From a virus, in IMG/VR virus record IMGVR_UViG_3300037487_001806, positions 1-32,303 of that record: a stretch of 32,303 bases of DNA. One strand, written 5' to 3'. The notes beneath the pieces were generated by a model. The model saw only the letters and a list, made by a program, of their open reading frames with translations. It made no database searches and had not been told where the DNA came from. The position numbers were made by a program, and so were the translations under genes. Positions 22,204-30,805 of this stretch are shown piece by piece; position 1 is the first letter of the stretch; each line of letters starts with the position of its first letter.

Positions 22204-22618
22204 CTAGCACCTCCTCGCAAGCGTCACTCAGCCCACGTCGAGCGCACGCGCCAATAAACGCGTCCATCATCGCCTCGCGCTCGGCGTCCAGCTTCGCCGC
22301 GTGGCCGCGAACGTCGCCCCACTGCAACGGAAACCTTCGCTCAAGGTACCACGCGAGAGCGCGCCAATCCTCGCGGCCTTGAACCTGAATTGACGCCACG
22401 GCCCGGGCCTCACACTCGGCCTCGGCTTTCGCCACCTCGAGGGCGAGCGGAATGAACATCTCATTCCCCGCCTCGGCTTGCCGCAGCCAGTCTCTCAGCG
22501 TCGTTTTAGCAATGCCAGCCGCGCCGCACGCGGCGTTTCGTTGCTGCCCTGACCGAAGGGACGCAACGAGGCGCTCTGCGATGTTTGGCGTCAGCTTGCT
22601 TGTTCCGCGTTTCAACAT
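22136..22618 (-). CDS. terS: Terminase small subunit (TerS)
   Basis: This 160-residue protein has an N-terminal helix-turn-helix (about residues 26-48, NAACGAAGIAKTTLRDWLRQAE) and the hallmark EDWRALAWYLERRFPLQWG (83-101) seen in many small terminases after the DNA-binding domain. C-terminal helices would form the oligomer and contact TerL. The chosen ATG (22616-22618) has a good GGAGG ribosome site and overlaps the methyltransferase stop by seven bases; the open frame upstream is not protein-like. It would recognise the packaging start site. TerL follows directly with an overlap. Confidence 0.85.
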   Translation of the reverse strand: MLKRGTSKLTPNIAERLVASLRSGQQRNAACGAAGIAKTTLRDWLRQAEAGNEMFIPLALEVAKAEAECEARAVASIQVQGREDWRALAWYLERRFPLQWGDVRGHAAKLDAEREAMMDAFIGACARRGLSDACEEVLGELANSGADEAGAARGATQSAH

Positions 22619-23289
22619 GGTGCCTCCAGTGTGGCCGTCTTGCCTGTCAGGTTTTCCCAGCGCTTCACGATGACGTCGCAGTACTGCGGGGATATTTCCA
22701 TCCCGTAGCATTTGCGGCCTAGTTGCTCGGCGGCGATAAGTGTGGTGCCGGAGCCGCAGAAGGGCTCGTAGACCAAACTTCCATTAGCAGACCATCCTCC
22801 GATGAAATGCCCGGCAACTGCGATCGGAAAAACGGCTCCGTGGACAGAGGCATCGTGCCCGCTTGCGGTGGCGTGCTCAAAGACATTCGAGAATGAACCT
22901 CGGCTGAAAGAGCACCCAGTAATTTTCCTAGTGGGTTCTTTTTCGCACGACAGCAGCCAAACAAACTCGAAAGCGCTAGTCATAACGCCATCTGCCATAG
23001 CTGGTTGTGGATTTGATTTCACCCAAACGGCGATGTCGGTTGTGTGATCTGCGAACTCTCCGAGCAATCCAAGCAGAGAAATCTTATTTCCTGAAAGCAT
23101 CTGGACGTTGACGGCACACAAGCGAGAAACACCAATTGCCGCGATAATGAATGCACGCATCATTTCGAGCCAGCCGTCGCCGCAGTCTTCGTTGTCGTTG
23201 TATGCTAGCGAGCTCCGCGCAACCCACACCGCCGCGGGATCGTCCTCGCTGGCCTGGAGCGTAGGCTGCGCCGCCTTGGCGGCTTTCAA
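22612..23289 (-). CDS. DNA methyltransferase-like protein, beta-class order, atypical catalytic motif
   Basis: This 225-residue protein carries the C-terminal SAM-binding signature YEPFCGSGTTLIAAEQLG (174-191), then KCYGMEISPQYCDVIVKRW (193-211). This is motif I at the C-terminal end, as in beta-class N4/N6 methyltransferases. In that order the catalytic (D/S)PP(Y/W) motif should lie near the N-terminus. The only candidate is SSLAYND (26-32), with Leu-Ala in place of the two prolines. The rest (NVQMLSGNK, FEFVWLLS) looks intact. It starts with TTG (23287-23289), overlapping the preceding stop. It may methylate phage DNA before packaging or protect it from restriction. Its place right before TerS is notable. 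Activity is uncertain because of the motif. Confidence 0.75.
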   Translation of the reverse strand: MKAAKAAQPTLQASEDDPAAVWVARSSLAYNDNEDCGDGWLEMMRAFIIAAIGVSRLCAVNVQMLSGNKISLLGLLGEFADHTTDIAVWVKSNPQPAMADGVMTSAFEFVWLLSCEKEPTRKITGCSFSRGSFSNVFEHATASGHDASVHGAVFPIAVAGHFIGGWSANGSLVYEPFCGSGTTLIAAEQLGRKCYGMEISPQYCDVIVKRWENLTGKTATLEAPC

Positions 23290-23909: not shown

Positions 23910-24133
23910 CGGCGCGTGTGCTCCTCGTGTGACTCAGCCCAACGGGTGTGCTCGCGGACAGCTCGCTCGCAGTTCGAACACCGCGAGTCAAGCGGGCTTT
24001 CGTCGTTGAGCTGGCCGGGGTGCGGTTTCAAACATAGCGTCCGGCGCATGTGCGCGGAATCATAGCAATGCGAGCGCGAAAGTGCGTCGTCTGAGTGCCC
24101 CCACCACGCCAATCTGTCAAGAACCTTCGTCAT
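23906..24133 (-). CDS. Small Cys/His-rich protein
   Basis: This 75-residue protein has Cys at CYDSAH and in LCLKPHPGQ, and a CSNCER pair, with many His between. A small zinc finger of the CxxC/H type is plausible. ATG 24131-24133 overlaps the DnaC-like gene's stop as ATGA, and its own stop overlaps the next start as ATGA, so it is cotranslated with the loader and the HTH gene. The family is not recognised. Confidence 0.55.
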   Translation of the reverse strand: MTKVLDRLAWWGHSDDALSRSHCYDSAHMRRTLCLKPHPGQLNDESPLDSRCSNCERAVREHTRWAESHEEHTRR

Positions 24134-24864
24134 CTCCCGTTAACCCCGCTGCCAAATAAGTCAACAATCTCCGCGCCGTGCATCAGCCGGCGAACCACCC
24201 CGGCCCCGTATCGCTCGGCAATCGCCACCCGCGACAGACCCGACGTTGCGATGGTCGTCAGGCCCGCGTCGTAGCGCCTCCCCAGGATAGCTGCGACGAC
24301 AGGCGACTGGCCCACTTGCGAAACGTGACCGCCCGCGGTGCCCAGTTCGTCAATCACCAAGATGTTAGCGGACTCAGCCGCAAAAAACAGCCCGTCCTTG
24401 CGCGCGGATTGCTCGCGAACAAGCGATTCCTCCGACGCCCACACCAGGGTAGGCGGCGAGCCAAAAGCCACACCTGACGCCATCGCCGCCAACCGCGCCG
24501 CTTTTGACGCGGCAGACAGCGCCGCGAACACGCTCGAGCTTTTGCCGCAGCCACTCGGACCGATAACGAGCTTCGCTTGGCCAACGACGAACGCCCCGTC
24601 GGCAAACGTAAACGGCTTCCAGGGTTCAAGCGCCGCGCGAGTCCGAGGCCAAAGGCGCGAAGTCCACGCTTCGTTAGCCCAGTTCGCCCACTCCCACGCG
24701 GGAAGTCCACCAGCGGTAGCCTTGCGCCACTCCGCGAGCTTGGCCCCCCGAGCATCGCGTTCTCGTTCGTCGGCTCGATCCGGTTGCCCGCTGTCGAGCT
24801 GCAACCCGCGGATAAAGCCTGCGAAATCAAAACCGCCGCCGTAATCGTCCTCGAAACCGTTCAC
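24130..24864 (-). CDS. DnaC/IstB-like AAA+ ATPase, probable helicase loader
   Basis: This 244-residue protein has Walker A GPSGCGKSS (102-110), Walker B ILVIDELG (168-175), a sensor-like strand TTIATSGL (203-210) and a late arginine cluster RYGAGVVRRL (218-227) suited to an arginine finger. These are the marks of helicase-loading DnaC-type ATPases. I chose GTG 24862-24864 because it overlaps the initiator's stop as GTGA and has a perfect GGGAGG ribosome site; an upstream ATG at 24879 would start inside that site. It would load the host replicative helicase at the phage origin, because no helicase gene is present. The initiator is directly upstream. Confidence 0.8.
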   Translation of the reverse strand: MNGFEDDYGGGFDFAGFIRGLQLDSGQPDRADERERDARGAKLAEWRKATAGGLPAWEWANWANEAWTSRLWPRTRAALEPWKPFTFADGAFVVGQAKLVIGPSGCGKSSSVFAALSAASKAARLAAMASGVAFGSPPTLVWASEESLVREQSARKDGLFFAAESANILVIDELGTAGGHVSQVGQSPVVAAILGRRYDAGLTTIATSGLSRVAIAERYGAGVVRRLMHGAEIVDLFGSGVNGR

Positions 24865-25802
24865 TTTGCATCCTCCCACGCGAGTCGCCCCGCGGTTATG
24901 TTGGTCACGAATCGTTTCAGATCCGGATCGCCTTGAACCAGGTGCTTGCTCTTGCCATTGCCCCGCGGCTTCTGCGGTTCGAGTGCGTCCTTAAACTTCC
25001 AGCCCAAGAGGCGCCGCGTCTCGCGCTCCGTCGCCCCGTCCGCGAGCTCGAGCGCCGCCGCTGCGATGGCCTTGCCGATCTTGGCCGCGTCGAGCTGCAA
25101 CGCAAGCGGCCCCAAGTGGTCTAGCAGCGCCTCGGCTACGTCCCCTCCCAAGTTCTTAAACCGCGACGACGCCGCAAGCGCCGTGGCGATCTCCGCTGCC
25201 CGAGGATCCCGAGCAATCGCAACCGGGGGTGCCGCCGCCTCTCGCGCGCCCGCGCGTCTGCTGCTCCCTCTCAGCTCTGCTTCTGCTTCTGAACTGTGCT
25301 TCTGAGATCTGAGATCTGCTTCTGCTTGTGTGACGTCACGGTCTTTTGGCGTGACGTCACGCGTGACGGACTGTGACGCGGCTCGCTTGCGATTGCGGTA
25401 ATCAGCCGCTCGAGTCGCGCTGGTGTGGTCCTTCTCGCGGTACCGGTCAAAGTTCAAGACGATGTACCCGCCGCTGATTCTGGCAAGCCGGCGCCCGTCG
25501 AAATCCTGCGATCTCGACTCGGGCTCAGGCGCCGACATCTGCTCCAACGACGCCAACCCCGCCTCGGCCTCGACCACGGCCTGATGAACGATGCCGATCC
25601 CGCTCGCCTCGATTAACCCGTACCAGCCTGCCGGTATCGTCCAGCCCGTTGGGGTCAGCGAACGCACCTCAAGTTGCGGCGTGTCCTCCGCGAGCTTGTG
25701 CGGCCTCGCCATAAGCAGCGCGGTCACGAACACCGACCGCGCCGCTGGTTGATGCCATAAGGTTGAATGCAGGATCCCGCAGTCCAGCTTTACGAATGCC
25801 AT
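24861..25802 (-). CDS. Phage replication initiator (O-like/replisome organiser)
   Basis: This 313-residue protein starts MAFVKLDCGILHSTLWHQP and continues PTGWTIPAGWYGLIEASG. This N-terminal DNA-binding module of about 130 residues resembles replication proteins of the helix-turn-helix replisome-organiser type, with VLNFDRYREKDHTSATRAADYRNRKRA closing it. Residues 140-190 are a flexible, repetitive linker; the DNA encoding it holds iteron-like repeats (25330-25378), as in lambdoid O genes. The C-terminal third is helical and may bind the loader or helicase. It lies just upstream of the DnaC-like gene, the usual O-P order. ATG 25800-25802 is four bases downstream of the XRE regulator's stop. 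Confidence 0.75.
   Translation of the reverse strand: MAFVKLDCGILHSTLWHQPAARSVFVTALLMARPHKLAEDTPQLEVRSLTPTGWTIPAGWYGLIEASGIGIVHQAVVEAEAGLASLEQMSAPEPESRSQDFDGRRLARISGGYIVLNFDRYREKDHTSATRAADYRNRKRAASQSVTRDVTPKDRDVTQAEADLRSQKHSSEAEAELRGSSRRAGAREAAAPPVAIARDPRAAEIATALAASSRFKNLGGDVAEALLDHLGPLALQLDAAKIGKAIAAAALELADGATERETRRLLGWKFKDALEPQKPRGNGKSKHLVQGDPDLKRFVTNITAGRLAWEDAK
25330..25378. repeat. Iteron-like cluster inside the replication initiator gene (candidate origin)
   Basis: Two perfect palindromes GTGACGTCAC (25330-25339 and 25351-25360, 21 bases apart) are followed by two GTGACG half-sites at 25363 and 25373. The spacings are near whole helical turns (21, 12, 10). They lie in the linker-coding part of the initiator, beside a low-complexity stretch with recurring CTTCTG (25275-25327). 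Repeats inside the initiator gene are the classic phage origin layout, so this is the best candidate for the replication origin. Confidence 0.6.
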
Positions 25803-25804
25803 GG

Positions 25805-25837
25805 CGTCACGCTATCACGCCGTGACGCGCCGTGACG
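25805..25837. repeat. Second GTGACG repeat cluster at the initiator start
   Basis: CGTCAC (25805-25810, the complement of GTGACG), a degenerate copy (25814-25819), then GTGACG at 25822-25827 and 25832-25837. They span the junction between the XRE regulator's stop and the initiator's start. The same motif in the initiator's middle suggests binding by the initiator for autoregulation or origin function. Confidence 0.5.
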
Positions 25838-27553: not shown

Positions 27554-27907
27554 TTAACCTTGCGCCGCAATTGTAATCAGCACCGACGGCTGGCCTTTTG
27601 ACTGGCTATATTCCCAGCGATACCGCGCGCTCCCGTCGTCAAGGCCGAGCGCATCGGCCACGCCATCGCGGACGGCTTTTAAAGCGCCTTGGAGGTTGTC
27701 GCTGTCCAGCGTGCGAGGGGACACGCGCACGAGCTCGGCGCGGATGACGCCGCCGAGAGCTGCCAGCGCCCGAAGCTCGCGGGCGTAGGGCAGCAGTGCG
27801 AGCCGCGCCGCGAGCCGCTGCCCCTGGACGCGCTTGGCCCTCCTGGCCCAGTGCTCGCGAAGGTTCGTCGTGCTCGGCGCGGGGATGCGAAGCGTCACCG
27901 AAATCAT
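27554..27907 (-). CDS. RusA-like Holliday-junction resolvase
   Basis: This 117-residue protein has the size and motif layout of phage RusA resolvases. An N-terminal strand (ISVTLRIPAPS) is followed by a basic helix (REHWARRAKRVQGQR). The conserved acidic site then reads LDSDNLQGALKAVRDGVADALGLDDG: D68, D70, D81 and D90-91 match the DxDN, K..D and DD positions. It would cut four-way junctions made during phage recombination or clear branched DNA before packaging. I chose ATG 27905-27907 because it overlaps the Cro-like stop as ATGA and has GAGG just upstream. A longer open frame upstream would be Arg-rich and unlike the family. Confidence 0.75.
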   Translation of the reverse strand: MISVTLRIPAPSTTNLREHWARRAKRVQGQRLAARLALLPYARELRALAALGGVIRAELVRVSPRTLDSDNLQGALKAVRDGVADALGLDDGSARYRWEYSQSKGQPSVLITIAAQG

Positions 27908-28167
27908 CGCGCCGCCTCGATTCTGTCCAACGCCGCGAACGCCTCGAGCTGTTCTTCCCGCAGCCACGCCCGGGCAGGGATAGCGCCGCCCGTCCAAGCT
28001 TCAATCGCGAGCGCGTGACGCCAGCTCGGACGCCGAATTCCCGCGAGCCACAAATGGACGGCAGTGCGCGTAACCCCGAAGATGCGCCCCATCGCGGCTT
28101 GGCTCGTGTTCGTTTTGACTAGGTATTTACCTAGCTCTTCGTTTGCAATGCGCTTTTTTCTTGTCAT
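27904..28167 (-). CDS. Cro-like HTH regulator
   Basis: This 87-residue protein has a helix-turn-helix of the Cro/XRE type at about residues 21-57 (TSQAAMGRIFGVTRTAVHLWLAGIRRPSW). A lysine/arginine-rich start (MTRKKR) precedes it. The size is that of Cro proteins, with no extra ligand domain. It starts at ATG 28165-28167; an upstream TTG would add three residues. The start lies five bases from the palindrome at 28172-28187, and the gene diverges from the plus-strand operon, so it probably represses that promoter and/or itself. No clear ribosome site precedes it, so a nearly leaderless mRNA is possible. Confidence 0.75.
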   Translation of the reverse strand: MTRKKRIANEELGKYLVKTNTSQAAMGRIFGVTRTAVHLWLAGIRRPSWRHALAIEAWTGGAIPARAWLREEQLEAFAALDRIEAAR

Positions 28168-28189
28168 GATTGTCAACCGAGGTTAACAT
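28161..28189 (+). promoter_or_regulatory. Promoter for the plus-strand operon
   Basis: TTGTCA (28161-28166, five of six consensus bases) and TAACAT (28184-28189, four of six) are exactly 17 bases apart. Transcription would start near 28196, about 50 bases before the first gene's ATG (28247). The -35 box overlaps the start codon of the divergent Cro-like gene. Confidence 0.6.
28172..28187. promoter_or_regulatory. Operator-like palindrome in the divergent region
   Basis: GTCAACCGAGGTTAAC is an inverted repeat: GTCAACC and the complement of GGTTAAC differ at one base. It fills the spacer and most of the -10 of the plus-strand promoter and ends five bases before the Cro-like gene. A related half-site (AGTTGAC) lies at 28211-28217. 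It is the natural target of the Cro-like protein. Confidence 0.55.
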
Positions 28190-28483: not shown

Positions 28484-28716
28484 CGCGCGACGAATACGTT
28501 AAGGCCGAGGCCCGCGCTGTCCAAGCCTGCAGTGTCGCCGCGGACGCCCATGATCGGGCTTACGGGGCGTATGAAGCCATCCGCTACGTCGGCTCCCGCG
28601 CGGCCGTGGAGGACGCCTACACGGCCACGTTGACCACCCGCGCAGTCTACGACGCCGCGAAGGCGTGGCGCGACAATACCGGTTGGCGTCGCCCAACGTT
28701 GCGAGGTGCCCGATGA
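28480..28716 (+). CDS. Hypothetical helical protein
   Basis: This 78-residue protein, MTRDEYVKAEARAVQACS and onward, is largely Ala-rich amphipathic helix with many Tyr, and has a basic C-terminus (WRRPTLRGAR). ATG 28480 overlaps the previous stop as ATGA and the next gene couples the same way. The family is unknown. Confidence 0.6.
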   Translation: MTRDEYVKAEARAVQACSVAADAHDRAYGAYEAIRYVGSRAAVEDAYTATLTTRAVYDAAKAWRDNTGWRRPTLRGAR

Positions 28717-28919
28717 GCCCGCAACGCGAGCTGGACGCGCCCTTGATTCGCTTCGGCCGCGCGGTCATCGACCTGCAGCGCGTGCCCCTCATCCCGTACG
28801 CCGAGCGCGACGAAGAAAGCATCGCGCTTTTGTGCGACGCGACGACAGAGTGGGCCGCGTCACTGGCCGTGGTGACCGCCGTGGCCGTCGAGCGCGCACT
28901 CGCGGGAGGTCGCGAGTGA
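28713..28919 (+). CDS. Hypothetical small protein before the exonuclease-annealing fusion
   Basis: This 68-residue protein has a first half with RFGRAVIDLQRVPLIPYAE and a second, Ala/Val-rich helix (TEWAASLAVVTAVAVERALAGG). It couples by ATGA to the upstream stop and by GTGA (28916-28919) to the large recombination gene. The family is unknown. Confidence 0.6.
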   Translation: MSPQRELDAPLIRFGRAVIDLQRVPLIPYAERDEESIALLCDATTEWAASLAVVTAVAVERALAGGRE

Positions 28920-30391
28920 GCACGCTAATTGTTGATTTCAGCGCCGTCTTTTGGCGCCAATGGCACGCGAGCGGGAACGAGGCCGTGAATTTTGCGCGTC
29001 AACGCACCGTCGGGCAGATTCGCGCCCACGCCGTCGAAGCCCGCGGATTTCCTTTGGCCCCGCGCGCGGGGGCCGTCATCGCTCTTGACGCCGGCAACAA
29101 CTGGCGGCGCAAACTGTGGAGCGGCTACAAAGCGACGCGCCCCGAAAAAGACGCGCTCGCGCTCGAGCAGTTGCGTCTCTGCGAGCAGGAGCTGCGCGCG
29201 GAAGGCTACCCGCTCGTGCGCCTTGACGGGTACGAAGCCGACGACGTGATCGCGTCGCTCGTGGCGTCGATTGAAGGCCACAAGACAATCTTGACGGCTG
29301 ATAAAGACCTCCTCCAGCTCCTCGGGCCGGAGTGCGACATGTACCACCTCGCCCGCGATAAATACGTATTTGACCTCGACGTGAAAAGCGAGCTTGGCAT
29401 TGAGCCAAGCCAGGTTGCCGAATGGTTGGCACTCGCGGGGGACGCGAGCGATAACGTTCCCGGGGTCGTCGGGGTCGGCCCCAAGGGGGCCGCGAAATTG
29501 CTGGCAAAACACGGCGACCTCGCCGGGATTTACGCCGCGCTCAACACGGAAGGGGCGTTCACACCCGCGCTCGACAAAAACCTACGCGACGCTGCGAGCC
29601 GCGCCGACTGCCCAATCTTGATGAGCCTCGAGCTCGTCAAGCTCACCCCGAAACGCGCGATGGCGTGCATCACTCCCGAATTGCTCGCGGCAATTAAAGC
29701 ACCGCGAATACCGAAACCCAACACCGCAACCGAAACAGAAGAAAACATGATTCAAGAACACGAATTTGAACCCGAGGCCGCGGCGCTGCCAGAGCCACCT
29801 AAAACCCTGCCGCACCAACACGAGGTGCCAATCATCGATCGCGCCCCCGAAACGCCGGCAGAGCGCGCCCTGGTCGTGCTACCGCGCGACTGGACGCGCC
29901 AGCTCGAGCCAATCGATTCGCGCTCAGCCTACGGCTTGGCTAAAGTCGTCGTCGCGTCGCGGATGTTTCCCGCGTATGGCGCTCCCGAGTCCGCGCTGTT
30001 GGTTCTCATGGCGGGCCGCGAATTCGGCCTCGGCGCTATGGCATCGCTCAGGTCATTCCACATCATCGAAGGCAAGCCCACAATGAGCGCGCAGGCCATG
30101 ATGGCGCGGTGTTTGGAGCATCCGAGCTGCGCGGAGTTCCGTGTGGTGCGGAGCGAGTGCAGTAACGAGCTTGCGACTGTGAGCGTGCGCCGCGTCGGCT
30201 GGACTACGCCCGAAATCTACACGTGGAGCGCCGACGATGCGAAGCGTGCGGGCCTTGCTGGCCGGGGCAACTGGTCGAAGTACCCGCGCGAGATGCTAAT
30301 CAATCGCTGCATCGCCGAGGCCGCGCGATTCACTTGGCCCGAGGTTATGGCGGGTGTGTACGCGCCCGAAGAATTTGGCGGTGCGTCGTGA
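28916..30391 (+). CDS. Fusion of FEN-type 5'-3' exonuclease and RecT-like single-strand annealing protein
   Basis: One unbroken 491-residue frame holds two recombination activities. Residues 1-265 are a 5'-3' exonuclease of the PolA-N/T5 D15 class: D7 (LIVDFS), D58 (IALDAG), YKATRPEK (71-78), EADDVIASL (107-115), TADKDLLQLL (127-136) and GDASDNVPGVVGVGPKGAAKLL (175-196, with a helix-hairpin-helix) supply the metal-binding acids and DNA-binding loop. Residues 266-325 are a low-complexity linker. Residues 326-491 resemble RecT-like annealing proteins: LAKVVVASRMF, LVLMAGREFGLGAMASLRSFHIIEGKPTMSA, DAKRAGLAG and NWSKYPREMLINRC. The start is GTG 28916 with GGGAGG upstream. An in-frame ATG at 29747 with AGAAGA could make the annealing part alone. 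It would degrade 5' ends and anneal the exposed strand, with the SSB nearby. Confidence 0.85.
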   Translation: MSTLIVDFSAVFWRQWHASGNEAVNFARQRTVGQIRAHAVEARGFPLAPRAGAVIALDAGNNWRRKLWSGYKATRPEKDALALEQLRLCEQELRAEGYPLVRLDGYEADDVIASLVASIEGHKTILTADKDLLQLLGPECDMYHLARDKYVFDLDVKSELGIEPSQVAEWLALAGDASDNVPGVVGVGPKGAAKLLAKHGDLAGIYAALNTEGAFTPALDKNLRDAASRADCPILMSLELVKLTPKRAMACITPELLAAIKAPRIPKPNTATETEENMIQEHEFEPEAAALPEPPKTLPHQHEVPIIDRAPETPAERALVVLPRDWTRQLEPIDSRSAYGLAKVVVASRMFPAYGAPESALLVLMAGREFGLGAMASLRSFHIIEGKPTMSAQAMMARCLEHPSCAEFRVVRSECSNELATVSVRRVGWTTPEIYTWSADDAKRAGLAGRGNWSKYPREMLINRCIAEAARFTWPEVMAGVYAPEEFGGAS

Positions 30392-30465
30392 GTGCATTGA
30401 AACCAAAACCGAAACCAAGGCCTCGGCCAAAACCGCTCTACAACCAAGGACAGAACCATGAATAA
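30388..30465 (+). CDS. 25-residue Lys/Arg-Pro peptide
   Basis: A tiny frame, started by GTG 30388 that overlaps the fusion gene's stop as GTGA and ending in TAA inside the next gene's start region (ATG 30458). The peptide is [19 protein letters not shown] plus six residues. It has strict K-P/R-P alternation and an LYN segment, and is strongly basic. The dipeptide pattern and PRPRP core resemble proline-rich peptides that enter the ribosome tunnel, but a translational coupling leader for the next gene is equally likely. It is too short for a confident coding call. Confidence 0.4.
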
Positions 30466-30805
30466 AAGCCAGCTTGAAGCGGTGCTTAAAGCCCACGCGC
30501 TGTGGCTTTGTTTCAAACAAGGTTGTGCCGCGGACTTGAGCTTTGCAGACTTGCGTGGCGCGGACTTGATTGGCGCAGACTTACGCAACGCTAATTTGAG
30601 CTGCGCGGACTTACGCCGCGCTGATTTGAGCCTTGCTAACTTGGACGGGGCTAACTTGGACGTGGCTAACTTGGACAGGGCTAACCTTTATGGCACAACC
30701 CTTGACAACACATGCCACGAAAAGTCTGAATTTGATTACACAAAAGGAGGCAGCGAGTATGTTTGTCTAAAGCTCACTGCCCTATGCTTAGATGAGGACA
30801 CATGA
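30458..30805 (+). CDS. Pentapeptide-repeat protein
   Basis: This 115-residue protein has a helix at 1-24, then about 12 consecutive A(D/N)LxX pentapeptides (residues 25-84: [60 protein letters not shown]), and a Cys-rich tail. The repeats fold as a right-handed square beta-helix. The array is far shorter than that of the gyrase-protecting Qnr/MfpA group, so a DNA-mimic role is not established. ATG 30458 sits within the end of the small peptide's frame, and the stop overlaps the SSB start as ATGA. Many phages carry such proteins with unknown role. Confidence 0.8.

Follow-up and report, generated by a model that had tools for sequence, protein, structure and literature searches.

The locus raises the question of why the gene for a predicted phage replication initiator contains an array of CGTRACG sites within its reading frame, and what these sites do. 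We analyzed a window of 32,303 nt, one strand of DNA from an uncultured phage, and all coordinates are window positions unless a locus is named.

A CGTRACG site array and its surroundings in the window

The array (25330-25378, no strand assigned) consists of two perfect GTGACGTCAC palindromes (25330-25339 and 25351-25360), spaced 21 nt from start to start, and two GTGACG half-sites (25363-25368 and 25373-25378), whose starts lie a further 12 and 10 nt on. It codes for residues ~142-158, in the linker of the protein from the minus-strand ORF 24861-25802. The initial annotation had reported the palindromes 21 bases apart and the two half-sites within the linker part of the gene, and this description proved exact. 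It had also called the linker flexible; the linker position is correct, and flexibility is suggested by the low AF2 confidence in this region.

Synonymous recoding with the codon usage of the phage gave 1.3 expected GTGACG/CGTCAC words in the linker on both strands, where six are observed (P = 6e-5), and a pair of palindromes was likewise unusual under recoding (P = 4e-4); these P-values are post hoc for the motif, and an unbiased k-mer count in the relatives recovered the same words. In 5000 codon shuffles of the initiator gene, six words in 60 nt were never reached, and first-order Markov copies of the window contained three at most. The cluster is explained neither by chance nor by coding for the protein.

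The array belongs to a larger module, in which the CGTRACG sites are followed by a GCAGAN repeat tract and accompanied by a further site cluster at the gene start. Both of these additional elements had been overlooked in the initial annotation. The tract (25267-25328, minus strand) adjoins the array on the side opposite the N-terminal coding part and is a candidate unwinding region. Its coding strand is 67% purine and 48% GC over 60 nt, compared to ~62% GC for the phage, which places it at the 5.5th GC percentile of the window. It is thus purine-rich rather than clearly AT-rich, which counts against an origin reading. The second GTGACG cluster (25805-25837, mixed strands), with sites at 25805 (minus), 25822 (plus) and 25832 (plus), is a candidate operator. 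No promoter consensus was found at this cluster in the window; in the relatives (50 loci), the same words (CGTGAC, CGTAAC) are enriched upstream of the gene together with TTGACA.

The gene surrounding the array (24861-25802, minus strand) codes for 313 aa, with an N-terminal DNA-binding-type domain, the linker and a C-terminal domain. The N-terminal domain (N-domain; aa 1-127, 25422-25802, minus strand) is conserved in an alignment of 49 sequences and was modeled confidently (AF2 pLDDT 89.6), with low confidence outside it in the full-length model. Its best named fold matches, all weak, are replisome organizers and one O protein. Just ahead of the array lies the coding part of a basic helix (aa 128-142, 25377-25421, minus strand), in which R131 and R136 are invariant in the 49 sequences; the R-x4-R pattern is also invariant in two other N-domain alignments. 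The window protein matched nothing in Pfam, PHROG or NCBIfam, and searches of the PDB by sequence and by fold returned nothing significant. The C-terminal halves of its relatives match the PHROG replication initiation families 9474, 270 and 678 ('O-like'), to which the window protein itself has no match. The next gene downstream (24130-24879, minus strand) is predicted to encode a DnaC-like helicase loader (PHROG 3277, E 6e-10; PHROG 50, E 3e-9). On the basis of the relatives' C-terminal matches and the neighboring loader, the window gene is identified as encoding a predicted replication initiator, in support of the name that it had been given before.

Several other window genes were recorded. 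In a single ORF (28706-30391, plus strand), a Pol I/FEN-type 5'-3' exonuclease (PF02739, PF01367) is joined with a RecT-like annealing protein (PHROG 561); this fusion is matched over its full length in five loci (L127-L130 and L132) and in L131 over 417 aa, to the end of that contig. A pentapeptide-repeat-like ORF (ADLxxAxL; 30458-30805, plus strand) lies between the RecT fusion and SSB. On the minus strand, a methyltransferase-like ORF (motif CGSGTTL; 22612-23289) is located beside the terminase small subunit gene, and the ORF at 27904-28176 is YdaS-like HTH (PF15943, E 3e-5, below the curated cut-off).

Module placement and selection on the DNA in relatives

We defined the family as ~50 distinct uncultured phage loci sharing the N-terminal ~140 aa, and these relatives carry the module. 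A first scan of a genome collection for N-domain relatives found none, and a second yielded four MAG contigs, three of them with GTRAC-type sites in the linker. INPHARED contained no phage relative of the N-domain. In an unbiased word count over 50 loci, the top words after the N-domain were AGCAGA, the word of the tract, with 24-fold enrichment, CGTGAC (18-fold) and CGTAAC (33-fold). The densest site cluster of a locus fell at the initiator gene in 37 of 49 loci, compared to 13% expected by length; the remaining 12 loci have few or degenerate sites. Site centers in the relatives are preferentially 5 and 21 bp apart, with 29 pairs at 21 bp vs. 18.9 for shuffled intervals, a count reached in 0 of 2000 shuffles.

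Scans that started from the DNA pattern also led to N-domain genes, the exceptions being coincidental matches in coding sequence, for example in endolysins; nine matches in endolysins and other proteins were rejected on these grounds (L088, L090, L093, L095, L107, L111, L117, L119 and L120).

Three placements of the module were observed. It lies inside the linker, as in the window; it runs on past the stop codon (5 loci: L050, L054, L055, L057 and L060); or it is located wholly upstream of the gene and inverted. The last arrangement was found in 11 loci, namely 10 family loci recognized by eye, where a strict regular expression finds 6, and L109. In every placement the tract is separated from the N-domain coding part by the sites. 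Mapped on the N-domain tree, the upstream state needs 5 changes on the best tree, of which at least 3 are forced by supported branches. In L109, a Dam-like methyltransferase-type ORF (L109:12706-13470) is situated between the upstream module and the initiator gene.

Across 35 linkers we counted 110 sites, compared to 36.6 ± 4.9 under synonymous recoding, while the N-domain control region contained 4 sites vs. 4.3 expected. The in-gene sites occupy both frames that are free of an in-frame stop, and the GTRACG frame that would create a stop is never used. The initial annotation had treated the array as a DNA element, and the excess in the linkers bears this out. Since the element is kept in relatives even outside the gene, we read the module as functioning as DNA and not as protein code, based on the frames, the arrays past the stop codon, the inverted upstream copies and the excess over recoding.

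Sites associated with other N-terminal domains

The family loci share the N-domain alone: the window's repressor-like gene, its loader and its C-terminal domain occur in none of them. Site variants (G/A) in the upstream and in-array positions covary modestly (rho 0.54, P = 0.012; 0.44 after GC, P = 0.046; phylogeny not corrected). Phages with the same exonuclease-RecT gene, loader and initiator C-terminal domain as the window have another N-domain, and their linkers still contain 2-9 GTNAC repeats vs. 0.5-1.0 expected, plus a purine tract.

When we scanned for DNA encoding RRYRERK, from the basic helix that precedes the array, we obtained 40 loci in which an open frame lies upstream. Twelve of them (10 non-redundant) have at least three GTRACG sites within the following 170 nt and are mostly initiator-like by eye; blastp did not place these 12 in the window's N-domain family. 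All 40 together contain 77 GTRACG sites vs. 10 expected. Five further loci (L201, L209, L213, L218 and L153) code for small proteins that terminate in a basic helix (AExxRRYRERK), and several of these proteins also have a short segment resembling a coiled coil. The 200 nt that precede the helix codons contain 5-8 GTRACG sites vs. ~0.5 expected. Because GTNAC-type repeats occur both in the siblings with a different N-domain and with small unrelated proteins, the sites are not exclusive to the window's N-domain. Profile comparison showed that the N-domain families are alike mainly at the wing and the basic helix.

In cultured phages sharing only a C-terminal domain, the linker contains different repeats, such as GGGTGCAA or GATTCC. 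In four cultured phages (L123, L121, L122 and L236), namely Pseudomonas phages and Salmonella phage epsilon15, the linker repeats GGGTGCAA, GATTCC and GCGGAC are candidates for their own origins. Two cases weaken the proposal that specificity is determined by the basic helix alone: epsilon15 has R-x4-R together with GCGGAC repeats, and the Rac prophage of E. coli 442/2 has GTAACG sites without RRYRERK.

Rac provides a natural swap. The prophages of E. coli 442/2 and K-12 share 87% identity on either side of an exchanged cassette of ~507 bp. In 442/2 this cassette includes the N-domain and every one of the 8 sites around ydaU, while none of these sites is found in the K-12 counterpart. Like the window, ydaU/ydaV of Rac 442/2 and Escherichia phage vB_EcoS-673R7 combine GTAACG sites upstream and in the linker with a purine-rich tract and a DnaC-like gene next to it. 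They differ in that the sites are mainly of the form GTAACG-7-CGTTAC and that the N-domain resembles the window's around the wing and basic helix only. Rac has an active origin, oriJ (PMC3945230).

It is conceivable, though in our estimate rather unlikely, that GTRACG arrays and a purine-rich tract form a portable origin module of several phage initiator families with otherwise dissimilar N-domains, whose half-site would be read by the shared basic helix (R-x4-R, often AERQRRYRERK), as eukaryotic bZIP basic regions read TGACGTCA. The bZIP-like idea is speculation drawn from little beyond co-occurrence.

Candidate origin function and comparison with known origins

From the sequence comparisons, we consider it likely that the sites of the array are bound by the N-terminal domain of the surrounding gene's own protein and that the array forms the core of the phage replication origin. 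We infer origin activity at the array together with the following steps. The initiator would bind the GTRAC sites, which are partly phased at 21 bp, and the complex would open the adjoining purine-rich GCAGAN tract. The host helicase would then be recruited by the C-terminal domain together with the DnaC-like loader encoded next to it, and the same initiator may bind the gene-start cluster, limiting its own synthesis. Cumulative GC skew around 25.3 kb had been suggested as a check on the origin, and we found no extremum there; the minimum lies near 30-30.5 kb. As this minimum is located beyond the flip in gene orientation (~28.7 kb), GC skew is uninformative here rather than refuting.

An unlikely alternative is that the sites are operators only, through which the protein or another regulator controls transcription of the replication operon, with the origin elsewhere. 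In many relatives the same sites do occur at the promoter, alongside TTGACA, and some upstream modules overlap this promoter. However, arrays within the gene are situated ~430 bp inside it and are linked to a repeat tract whose side and sequence are fixed, which an operator would not require, and the absence of the window's repressor-like gene from all relatives also argues against this reading. Very unlikely, in our view, is binding by a conserved host protein with a role at phage origins, an explanation that would account for a half-site common to several dissimilar N-domains with GTRAC-type arrays. In Rac, though, presence or absence of the sites follows the N-domain cassette within the same host species; epsilon15, with a related domain, has its GCGGAC repeats instead; and relatives occur in MAGs labeled as several phyla. 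Finally, selection for a flexible or charged linker peptide (RDVT, AEAEAE), with the DNA repeats as a by-product, can hardly hold: the (GCAGAA)n tract does read AEAEAE in most in-gene cases, but the arrays past stop codons and the inverted upstream modules already contradict it, as do the differing frames and the three-fold excess over synonymous recoding.

The preferred reading, an origin core bound by its own initiator, invites comparison with oriLambda, whose repeats and unwinding tract lie in the middle of gene O (PMC7466680). As in gene O of lambda and Stx phages, initiator-binding repeats (predicted for the window) stand between the N- and C-terminal coding parts, with a flanking unwinding tract (a candidate here) and a helicase-loader gene next (DnaC-like here). 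In contrast to the tandem 18-19-bp inverted-repeat iterons and AT-rich tract of oriLambda, the window type has CGTRACG sites of mixed spacing, with the two peaks given above, and the purine-rich GCAGAN tract; placement of the module is not fixed in the gene, and there is an extra cluster at the gene start. The initial annotation had drawn the parallel to lambdoid O genes, which holds for the layout and does not extend to homology: the N-domain has no detectable sequence homology to lambda O, given the empty Pfam, PHROG and NCBIfam searches and only the weak fold match to an O protein. The module is best read as built like the lambda origin and, on present tests, as not a member by descent.

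The likeness to SPP1, with its replisome organizer G38P, is likewise one of layout. SPP1 oriL lies within gene 38 (PMC6316719), and oriL/oriR share with the window direct repeats bound by the initiator (predicted here), a second repeat region and a loader gene (loader and helicase genes in SPP1). The second SPP1 region is ~13 kb away and itself an origin, whereas the window's second cluster lies at the start of the initiator's own gene. Origins within genes are already known, and repeats have served earlier to propose putative ones (PMC7924643). What is novel here is the GTRAC/GCAGAN module, the fact that it has repeatedly shifted into and out of the reading frame, and its reappearance alongside several families of N-domain.

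The module is a sequence signature by which the likely origin can be recognized in a large phage group that, by N-domain, has no INPHARED member. Its moves show that a candidate origin element can shift between the inside and the outside of the initiator's reading frame. The ydaU cassette of Rac 442/2 and its K-12 counterpart offer an E. coli system in which the rule of specificity may be tested.
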